A stretch of DNA of 64,000 nucleotides from Halorientalis sp. IM1011 (GTDB lineage Archaea > Halobacteriota > Halobacteria > Halobacteriales > Haloarculaceae). Positions 8,189 to 46,984 of this stretch are shown in pieces. A program made the position numbers and the translations under genes. Every line of letters begins with the position of its first letter. Position 1 is the first letter of the stretch. The notes under the pieces were generated by a model, which did no database searches, had not been told where the DNA came from, and saw only the letters and a program-made list of their open reading frames with translations. Location: positions 1,364,001 through 1,428,000 of the forward strand of contig NZ_CP019067.1 of NCBI RefSeq assembly GCF_001989615.1, written 5' to 3'.

Positions 8189-8312
8189 CTGTACGCCCCA
8201 CATGCGAGCGCGATGATATAACACTTGACCTGCCTTCGAGTCTGTTGACCGGGCTCGGACCGCTTTCGAGCCCTCGGCTCAGCAGTGACACAGCCCCAGA
8301 AACGTGCCAGCA

Positions 8313-8325
8313 CCCCGATTTGAAC
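8313..8325. repeat. truncated copy of the tRNA-Phe 3' end
   Basis: CCCCGATTTGAAC is identical to 8470-8482 inside tRNA-Phe, and weaker similarity extends on both sides (TGCC before it, GGA after it). The copy lies 157 bases on the 3' side of the tRNA. It cannot be a functional tRNA because no D-arm or anticodon arm follows. The DNA between the copies includes a CTCGCTTCGCTCG core and repeated CGTTCCGG. Confidence 0.6.
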
Positions 8326-8462
8326 AGAGGAAGACGTTCCGGGCGTGCGGCTCGCTTCGCTCGCCGTTCCGGGGCTGTGACTTCCAGGCTCGAATCGATT
8401 CGGGAGCATTTTCACCGCTCACGACTCGGTCGCGGTGCTCCCTCGGTAGTTCGCGGGAAAAT

Positions 8463-11413: not shown

Positions 11414-11429
11414 TAATCCGGGAATTCGA

Positions 11430-11442
11430 GCGGATTCGAACC
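11430..11442. repeat. truncated copies of a tRNA T-arm beside tRNA-Val
   Basis: GCGGATTCGAACC is identical to 11543-11555 within tRNA-Val, 113 bases away on its 3' side. A second T-arm-like fragment (GGGTTCGAACCGCC) lies at 11479-11492. Between them and the tRNA there is a perfect 11-bp inverted repeat, CTTGCTGCTGC (11499-11509) with GCAGCAGCAAG (11523-11533). None can fold as a tRNA. Confidence 0.6.
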
Positions 11443-11533
11443 GGAGCCCGTTGCTCAATCCGTTGCGCGCGACTGGCAGGGTTCGAACCGCCCTCACGCT
11501 TGCTGCTGCTCACGGTTCGTTCGCAGCAGCAAG

Positions 11534-11607
11534 TGGGTTCGGGCGGATTCGAACCACCGACCTCGGCCTTGTAAAGGCCGCGTCATAACCGACTAGACCA
11601 CGAACCC
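11534..11607 (-). tRNA. tRNA-Val(TAC)
   Basis: On the minus strand it has acceptor stem GGGTTCG/CGAACCC, anticodon stem GGCCT/AGGCC with loop holding TAC, and T-arm GGTGG TTCGAAT CCGCC (wobble-containing). The discriminator base A is at 11534; CCA is not encoded. It closes the right side of the Fic/glycosylase island. Confidence 0.93.
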
Positions 11608-11691
11608 GTACTCGACCCAAGCCCACGCCGAAGAATAACACTTACTCTCTCGGTCGACAGCCTTACCCCGTCGACCCCACACCTCTCGACC

Positions 11692-22817: not shown

Positions 22818-23057
22818 CTGAGGGCCAGTAGAGTCCTGACGGAGTCCCCGCGAGCGCCGAGGGACCAACGGTCCCTCGAGCAGCCGGCGCTTCGCGCCGG
22901 CGACGCAGCGAGCGGGGGCCCGTCAGAGCGCGGACGCGCTCTGACGGAGATTTGAACTCACTCACTTCGCTTCGCTCGTTCGCTGCTCAAATCTCCGCGC
23001 GTCCGTTTCATCGACGCGGACGGTTCGCTACGCTCACCGTTATTGCGTCGATGAAAA
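22818..23057. repeat. palindrome cluster with a truncated tRNA-Arg 3' copy
   Basis: Five perfect or near-perfect inverted repeats stand head to tail: 22859-22877 (8-bp arms), 22883-22901 (8), 22920-22947 (13-bp arms CCGTCAGAGCGCG, GA loop), 22946-22996 (10-bp arms GGAGATTTGA) and 23006-23056 (12-bp arms TTTCATCGACGC). A 19-bp copy of the tRNA-Arg 3' end (22941-22959, identical to 23062-23080) lies across the third and fourth. No coding frame is supported in the gap 22818-23057. Confidence 0.8.
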
Positions 23058-23130
23058 CGTCCTGACGGAGATTTGAACTCCGGTCCCTGGCTCCGCAAGC
23101 CAAGAGGATAGTCCACTACCCTATCAGGAC
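23058..23130 (-). tRNA. tRNA-Arg(GCG)
   Basis: Minus-strand gene with acceptor stem GTCCTGA/TCAGGAC, anticodon stem TTGGC/GCCAG with loop TTGCGGA (anticodon GCG), and T-arm CGGAG TTCAAAT CTCCG. Discriminator G is at 23058. No intron; CCA is not encoded. Confidence 0.94.
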
Positions 23131-45817: not shown

Positions 45818-46705
45818 ATGGCACGCGCACTGCTCGACGTCGACGACCTGACCGCCGAAGAGTTGACTACCGTCCTCGACCGCGCCGCCGACCTGAAGGC
45901 GGCCGACGACGGCCGGCAACCGCTGGTCGATCGGACGCTGGGGATGATCTTCGAGAAACCATCGACCCGAACCCGAGTCTCCTTCGAGACGGGGATGACC
46001 CAGCTCGGGGGCCACGCCATCTTCCTCGGGCCGGACGACATCCACCTCGGCCACGGCGAGCCGATCAAGGACACCGCCCGCGCGGTCTCGCGGTACGTCG
46101 ATTTCATCATGGCTCGCGTGTTCGACCACGCGGACGTGGTGGAACTGGGCGAGTACGCCACCGTCCCGGTAATCAACGGGCTGACCGACGACGCCCACCC
46201 CTGCCAGACGCTGGCGGACCTGCTGACGATCCGCGAGCGGTTCGGCGGGTTCGACGTGGACGTGGCCTGGGTCGGCGACGGCAACAACGTCGCCCAGTCG
46301 TTCGTCCTCGGCGCGGCGATGGCCGGCATCGACCTGACCGTCGCCACGCCCGAAGGGTACGGCATCGACGACGACGTTCTCAAGCGCGCCGCGGGACTCG
46401 GCGGCGAACCCGAGACCACCCACGATCCCGAGGCGGCCGTCGAAGACGCCGACGTGGTCTACACCGACGTGTGGGTCAGCATGGGGCAGGAGGACCAGCG
46501 CGAGCAGAAGCTCGCCGACTTCGATGGGTTTCAGGTCACCACCGACCTGCTCGGCGACCGGCCGCTGATGCACTGCCTTCCGGCCCACCGCGGCGAGGAA
46601 GTGACCGACGAAGCCTTGGAGAGCGAGAATTCGATCGTCTGGGATCAGGCGGAGAACCGGATGCACGCCCAGAACGGGCTGTTGGTGTGGCTGGCCGAGC
46701 AGTAG
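45818..46705 (+). CDS. argF: ornithine carbamoyltransferase
   Basis: Makes citrulline from ornithine and carbamoyl phosphate. Carbamoyl phosphate loop FEKPSTRTRVSFETGM (residues 45-60), ornithine motif HCLPAHRGEEV and DDAHPCQTLADL are present. Length of 295 aa is normal. It ends the arg operon; its last 57 bases plus flanks are duplicated 208 bases downstream. Confidence 0.96.
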   Translation: MARALLDVDDLTAEELTTVLDRAADLKAADDGRQPLVDRTLGMIFEKPSTRTRVSFETGMTQLGGHAIFLGPDDIHLGHGEPIKDTARAVSRYVDFIMARVFDHADVVELGEYATVPVINGLTDDAHPCQTLADLLTIRERFGGFDVDVAWVGDGNNVAQSFVLGAAMAGIDLTVATPEGYGIDDDVLKRAAGLGGEPETTHDPEAAVEDADVVYTDVWVSMGQEDQREQKLADFDGFQVTTDLLGDRPLMHCLPAHRGEEVTDEALESENSIVWDQAENRMHAQNGLLVWLAEQ

Positions 46706-46706
46706 T
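46647..46706. repeat. 60-bp direct repeat, copy 1 (argF 3' end)
   Basis: Begins AGGCGGAGAACCGG and ends GAGCAGTAGT, identical to 46855-46914. Contains the last codons and stop of argF. Confidence 0.9.
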
Positions 46707-46786
46707 TACGGCGAGCGGTGCGAGGGCGACCGTTGGGAGCCCTCGGTGAGGTGAGCGGCATCGCCGCGAACCGCCGGGAGCGAGCC

Positions 46787-46854
46787 GCTTTTTCGCCCAC
46801 GTTTTTCGACGAGGGGTGACGAGCGGAGCGAGTCACCCGAGGAGAAAAAGGTGG
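46787..46854. repeat. palindromic element A after argF
   Basis: Order: GCTTTTTCGCCCAC (46787-46800), GTTTTTC, a 7-bp palindrome GGGTGAC (46814-46820) with GTCACCC (46832-46838) around GAGCGGAGCGA, then GAAAAAGGTGG (46844-46854). The outer blocks CCCACGTTTTT and AAAAAGGTGG are themselves nearly inverted. Element B at 49112-49174 has the same order. The T-run may serve as a terminator for the arg operon. Confidence 0.7.
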
Positions 46855-46914
46855 AGGCGGAGAACCGGATGCACGCCCAGAACGGGCTGTTGGTGTGGCT
46901 GGCCGAGCAGTAGT
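46855..46914. repeat. 60-bp direct repeat, copy 2 (argF 3' end echo)
   Basis: Identical to 46647-46706. It ends at a stop codon in the same frame style but has no start, so it is a non-functional echo. Downstream, GGCCAC...GTGGCC (46918-46940) abuts a second GCTTTTTCGCCCAC (46941-46954). Confidence 0.9.
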
Positions 46915-46984
46915 ACCGGCCACGAACGGAGTTTGTGGCCGCTTTTTCGCCCACTGTGCCGCGAGTGCGCAGTAGGGGACTACA

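Follow-up and report, generated by a model that had tools for sequence, protein, structure and literature searches.

The window, by which we mean the whole 64-kb stretch of DNA that was analyzed, contains argF, the product of which was identified as ornithine carbamoyltransferase by the profiles NF001986 (415 bits) and TIGR00658 (383 bits), and the 3' end of this gene is present twice (Table 1). The two copies, designated X and X', are identical over 60 bases and lie 208 bases apart, which agrees to the base with an earlier reading of the letters alone (the sequence-only reading). The repeat consists of the last 18 complete codons, the stop codon, and one further T, and no other exact direct repeat in the window is as long, the runner-up being 26 bp. 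The motif GCTTTTTCGCCCAC, which the same reading had reported at 46787-46800 and 46941-46954, is found at both places, and the palindromes GGGTGAC/GTCACCC and GGCCAC/GTGGCC also lie where it had located them.

Table 1. Features of the argF locus, with positions in the window.
Feature	Position	Strand	Basis
argF, ornithine carbamoyltransferase, 295 aa; gene with the echoed 3' end	45818..46705	+	profile match
X, functional argF 3' end, stop codon TAG at 46703-46705	46647..46706	+	exact repeat
L1, terminator region behind argF: GC-rich composite hairpin, then GCTTTTTC	46707..46796	+	
C, core of the interspersed element, CCACGTTTTT-[hairpin]-GAAAAAGGTGG	46797..46854	+	family, fold, covariation
X', repeat of the argF 3' end, including a separate stop codon at 46911-46913; read as a displaced gene end	46855..46914	+	
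L2, GGCCAC...GTGGCC hairpin and GCTTTTTCGCCCAC	46915..46954	+	fold, z of -3.3

Regarding the segments between and behind the two copies, the T5C tract of L1 lies at 46789-46794, and L1 is similar at either end to the simple terminator that follows X' in Halorientalis pallida, the two ends being separated by an insert; the fold of the whole segment is unremarkable (z of -1.7). The core C contains a second T5C tract (46802-46807) and another on the reverse strand (CCACCTTTTTC), and the core together with the T-tract before it (46787-46854) folds with z-scores of -3.7 and -3.3 on the two strands. L2 is of the terminator type that stands directly behind argF in several other Halorientalis genomes, and no core follows it in the window. 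In H. pallida (L109), the two terminator types occur behind X and X' in the reverse order to that in the window.

Distribution, anatomy, and placement of the element

The core belongs to a family of interspersed elements. A search for GCTTTTTCGCCCACGTTTTT with up to 3 mismatches returned 27 places in the 3.78-Mb genome, against 0 for the reversed control; these 27 include L014 and L021, which are apparently one locus counted two times, given the likely overlap of the contig ends. The two places (G000 C1:11157 and C1:3372887) look identical, and the overlap is probably approximately 20 kb. The half-pattern CACGTTTTTN18-48GAAAAAGGTGG was present in all eight Halorientalis genomes and in 30 of 40 sampled Haloarculaceae versus 6 of 154 other Halobacteria, with 0 matches for the reversed-pattern controls. 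A viral origin was considered improbable, since only four viral contigs had the half-pattern; the IMG/VR contigs with the core pattern are L221-L224.

The usual anatomy is a terminator hairpin L that ends in (C/G)CTTTTTCGC, followed by the core, CCACGTTTTT-[hairpin]-GAAAAAGGTGG; L is present in most copies. The core has terminal inverted repeats, the CCACGTTTTT / AAAAAGGTGG pair, which contain one fixed mismatch and are invariant in 20 aligned cores. The inner hairpin varies in sequence and retains its pairing (93.5% of cells paired), with a covariation score of 0.263 versus 0.064 for shuffled alignments and at most 0.069 for slid partners. An Rfam search with four array loci gave no match.

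Several variations on this plan were also noted. Extra nested hairpin modules, such as CGTTCGAGGGACGAAGTCCCTCG...CATACCATGCGAACGGGC, occur within the elements at L005, L006, L016, L024, and L018, a separate left module, AGCATCCG-[hairpin]-CGGTTCAC, stands ahead of many copies, and short tandem runs resembling GCGGTCGCGGTGCGG lie upstream of two elements in the window's genome (L015 and L022). In the argF element of G006 (L214), CTTTTTGGTCCAGATTTTTT replaces CTTTTTCGCCCACGTTTTT, while the right end and the type of gene-end echo are unchanged; the echo has 4 synonymous and 0 non-synonymous differences, as counted by eye, and the window's genome has almost no T-tracts of this type. Regular arrays were found in one Haloarcula genome, in which two places (G018 C1:3341513-3341999 and C1:56449-56935) have three cores each at 186-bp spacing, apparently through a larger duplication or contig overlap, and another array has a spacing of 170 bp (G024 C1:1319225-1319810).

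The elements lie directly behind stop codons and have T5C tracts on both strands. Among the matches listed, 51 of the 104 copies without a gene-end echo have the stop codon of a convergent ORF at most 13 bp from GGTGG, and mostly no more than 4 bp from it, versus 7.5% of random positions. A T5C tract was shown to stop 95% of transcripts in vivo in Haloferax volcanii (PMC7237163). Since T5C faces both ways in the element and terminates transcription in H. volcanii, the element is probably a bidirectional T5C transcription terminator. It resembles the archaeal T5C terminators described in that study in having T5C tracts just behind stop codons, and differs from simple ones in that the tracts face both ways within a repeated, structurally conserved element.

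Gene-end echoes and their junctions

The sequence-only reading had regarded the locus as a possible non-autonomous palindromic element that duplicates the 3' ends of its targets. The genome-wide search for the motif revealed further copies with such duplications. From Halorientalis and the genome collection, 192 distinct copies among the matches listed were parsed, all of which were retrieved by pattern, such that the sample is biased toward the CGCCCACG variant and includes orthologous copies that are not independent. The 3' end of the upstream gene was repeated in 88 of these 192 copies, nearly always within a few bases past GGTGG; the cut-off for an echo was the 99.9th percentile of 1,920 shuffles, which approximately 0.1% of shuffled controls exceeded. 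The coding length of the echo ranged between 22 and 92 bp, with a median of 45, and the echoes formed 34 clusters, or approximately 30 gene families once a few frame errors are discounted. The genes concerned include argF, which was the most frequent, spt5, etfA, hisH, pheT, gyrA, and a gltA-like gene with the C-terminus RLIRPRARYVGKNPDETTFVPLDER; we take the names spt5 and gltA-like from sequence. About half of the copies had no detectable duplication. These figures, similar to those on genes and clusters, apply to the matches listed.

The unrelated gene ends, approximately 30 in number, have no sequence in common at the junction, and the same GGTGG end is used with every gene; an integrase att site was rejected for lack of a common core. 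In 16 of the 25 copies in which the echo starts 4 bases past GGTGG, the junction consists of three bases that match the gene, shifted by one, and one extra base, mostly C or T, after which the gene sequence resumes. By eye, this junction of three bases and a pyrimidine was seen in about a dozen unrelated genes (L124, L079, L105, L187, L175, L127, L189, L182, L129, and others). A reading-frame reason for it was looked for, and none was found. The possibility that X' serves as a translated extension from the GTG in GGTGG was rejected because the frames were evenly spread (29/24/22). The junction signature is not accounted for by a crossover.

tRNA genes were also found next to the element. At L014, L040, L032, and L036, its right end abuts the 3' end of a tRNA, the tRNA being followed by CCACCTTTTT, and at L014 and L040, part of a tRNA 3' end also lies beyond the opposite end of the element. 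In the window itself, echoes resembling the T-arm or 3' end lie beside the tRNA genes for Arg, Val, and, weakly, Phe (22941-22959 / 23062-23080, 11420-11610, and 8310-8330); they form palindromes and carry no copy of the element. These echoes, to which the sequence-only reading had likened that of argF, are probably a separate phenomenon, although tRNA loci elsewhere do have the element (L014 and L040).

Origin of the two gene ends

When 73 distinct X/X' pairs were aligned on the stop codon, they fell into two classes of 52 and 21. In the 52 pairs, identity was approximately 0.95 at codon positions 1 and 2 and 0.67-0.88 at position 3, and had decreased to approximately 0.3 a few bases past the stop codon; the stop codons themselves differed in 18 of the 52. 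Codon differences between X and X' comprised 90 synonymous and 38 non-synonymous changes. The most plausible reading of these pairs is that two alleles, having diverged while each served as a functional gene end, were later joined, because a copy that was merely decaying after duplication would not show such a pattern. In the remaining 21 pairs, identity stays at approximately 0.95 through the stop codon and the terminator, and these look like plain or recent tandem duplications. A simple target-site duplication was ruled out for most copies, since identity ends at the stop codon. The window's own X and X' are identical and, therefore, provide no allelic signal.

Full and empty sites were compared at the gltA-like gene and spt5, at both of which the element is absent from many Haloarcula genomes and empty sites outnumber occupied ones. 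At the gltA-like gene, the DNA behind X' aligned with element-free genomes with scores of 264-379 (two carriers, six best comparisons each), versus 20-37 for the DNA behind X; two other carriers (G029 and G024) were uninformative because there was no empty genome with matching downstream DNA. At spt5 in G014, G020, G027, and G017, the corresponding scores were 192-289 behind X' and 16-23 behind X, and in G017, X' itself was nearer to the element-free genomes (82/87) than X was (75/87). As judged from these alignments, the comparison shows that the native gene end of both genes is the second copy, which has been displaced behind the element together with its downstream DNA, and that the end and terminator of the functional gene are those of another allele. 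The majority of empty sites favors gain over loss, short of proof; this polarity rests on parsimony, as an identical empty site would result if the cassette were lost through recombination between X and X'.

Regarding the source of X at the gltA-like gene, one junction position is common to several species, and X and X' within one genome agree at 70-75 of 75 bases versus 57-64 between most element-bearing species. The likeness within genomes despite a common junction suggests that X' has been refreshed by exchange or conversion. Distant donors were rejected as the usual source of X, since the two copies within a genome tend to be more similar to one another than to those of other species, and exchange at this gene may have occurred mostly within or between near relatives, or its products may have been homogenized.

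A comparison of argF among the relatives revealed a variable arrangement, ranging from no element (G007) and a degenerate remnant only (G002) to one core (G000, G001, G003, and, with the variant T-tract, G006), two cores (G004), and three cores (G005). The junction points of argF differ among species and, therefore, were formed more than once. The order in G004 is X-L-C-X'-L-C-X''. X and X'' of this genome differ at 3 of 56 bases, all within the first eleven bases past GGTGG, whereas the middle copy, X', has 7 differences from its own X and only 2 of 56 from G005 and G000, and the core behind it (the second) is identical to the last (third) core of G005. G004 thus appears to hold a foreign-like unit, which we count toward import between genomes. 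At the argF, gltA-like, and spt5 loci alike, the content of one site varies between conserved sequences.

The view of a non-autonomous palindromic element that stands at duplicated gene 3' ends at many loci was upheld by these results, and the refuting condition named by the sequence-only reading did not hold, given the 88 copies with gene-end duplications and the varied argF arrangements. The view that the element copies its target was not supported: most of the informative pairs are two diverged alleles with nothing in common past the stop codon, and at the gltA-like gene and spt5, for which relatives without the element are available, the native gene end is the second copy. Nor does the perfect identity of the argF copies need to indicate a recent event, as had been supposed, because exchange or gene conversion also homogenizes copies.

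Proposed mechanism, rival explanations, and known systems

We propose, with a probability of approximately 0.58, that L-C (46707-46854) is a short non-coding hairpin cassette of Haloarculaceae, a bidirectional T5C terminator, that spreads among strains and related species by allelic homologous recombination and has no transposase. Spread through recombination in the flanks is suggested by the allelic patterns, and mating and recombination in haloarchaea are documented (PMC4500145, PMC10085750, and PMC8223754). An incoming allele A (gene 3' end - L - C) would recombine with a resident allele B, with the left crossover inside the conserved coding region; on the right side, the GGTGG end of C would be joined to an internal position in the resident gene, in most cases via an X' already present behind C. 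The functional gene would then end with the last codons, stop codon, and terminator of allele A, while the resident native 3' end and native downstream DNA would remain behind C as X'. X' would therefore be a displaced gene end and, at the same time, a right homology arm that is homologous to the gene end of any strain, so that the cassette may enter strains in which the downstream DNA is unrelated. Tandem [X-L-C]n arrays and, occasionally, clean loss would also result from exchange between X and X', and the primary junctions may have come from tandem duplication or one-sided illegitimate joining. More tentatively, the element may be regarded as a transposase-free selfish element with a portable homology arm taken from a host gene, each displaced native end being the arm for the next transfer.

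Local tandem duplication only is an unlikely rival. The hairpin C would stall replication and the nascent strand would re-anneal inside the gene, by which [gene end - L - C] is doubled in place, with gene conversion keeping X similar to X' and no spread between genomes. This explanation suits the arrays of two to three cores (L078, L068, L079, L044, L082, and L061), the 21 pairs that are identical through the terminator, and the related species with the same junction and an X close to X', but not the 52 pairs in which similarity ends at the stop codon or the two genes whose second copy has the DNA found in element-free species; furthermore, 70% synonymous differences are unexpected if X' decays freely, and the X' of argF in G004 is foreign-like.

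A transposable element near gene ends, with an unknown transposase or of a retroelement-like nature and with long target-site duplications of variable length, is less probable still. The duplication should pass the stop codon into the native flank, yet it ends there in 52 of the 73 pairs, the copies differ as alleles do, and the copies away from gene ends have no convincing repeat of this type; these points outweigh, in our opinion, the direct repeats that flank many copies, the existence of element-free sites, and the enzymatic look of the recurrent junction of three gene bases and one pyrimidine. Terminal inverted repeats are found in the element as they are in MITEs and other derivatives of DNA transposons; in place of a target-site duplication of fixed length, there are 22-92 coding bp, which mostly end at the stop codon and are missing at many copies.

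Tyrosine-integrase elements at tRNA genes and some protein genes displace the native 3' end with an element-borne version, and the present element similarly supplies a new 3' end and displaces the native one (at the gltA-like gene and spt5), with synonymous differences. That the copies are remnants of such elements, with gene 3' ends as attachment sites, is very improbable: this typical displacement and the two tRNA cases (L014 and L040) stand against inserts of approximately 90-250 bp that are non-coding and have no integrase, lie at arbitrary genes of approximately 30 families without a common att core, and have the same GGTGG end with every gene.

Among known systems, the cassette that we propose to spread by allelic recombination may be compared with the minimal mobile elements of Neisseria, in which cassettes are swapped by homologous recombination in flanking conserved genes. 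Both have no recombinase, draw on homology from flanking conserved genes, and vary in site content among strains. However, the present cassette is non-coding, consists of a terminator hairpin that recurs at many loci, and brings its right homology arm with it in the form of the displaced 3' end of the left-hand gene. REP/BIME-type repeats and DUS-type terminators are short interspersed hairpins at gene 3' ends, some of which are terminators; to our knowledge, an adjoining duplication of the gene end is not part of these families. The PATEs and SMRs of Haloquadratum, similar to the present element, are small transposase-free palindromic repeats of haloarchaea; they have target preferences and no target duplications, the ends of PATEs are IS605-like, and SMR-A insert into IS605-like elements (PMC3119063). 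Unlike these repeats, the present element lies at gene 3' ends with gene-end echoes, and membership in PATEs was rejected because 46% of copies, among the matches listed, adjoin a duplicated gene end. A literature search, the coverage of which left out most subscription journals, did not reveal an earlier description of gene-end duplications at such repeats.

If the proposed mechanism is correct, the terminators of a whole archaeal family would be mobile and, without a recombinase, would pass between strains and species along with the final codons of housekeeping genes. Hidden synonymous mosaics and 'pseudo' gene ends in haloarchaeal genomes would thereby be accounted for, and the copies would constitute a record of allelic exchange at named genes as well as a natural assay of the minimal homology needed for haloarchaeal recombination. 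The 3' ends of protein genes, and not only those of tRNA genes, could then be landing pads through plain homologous recombination.
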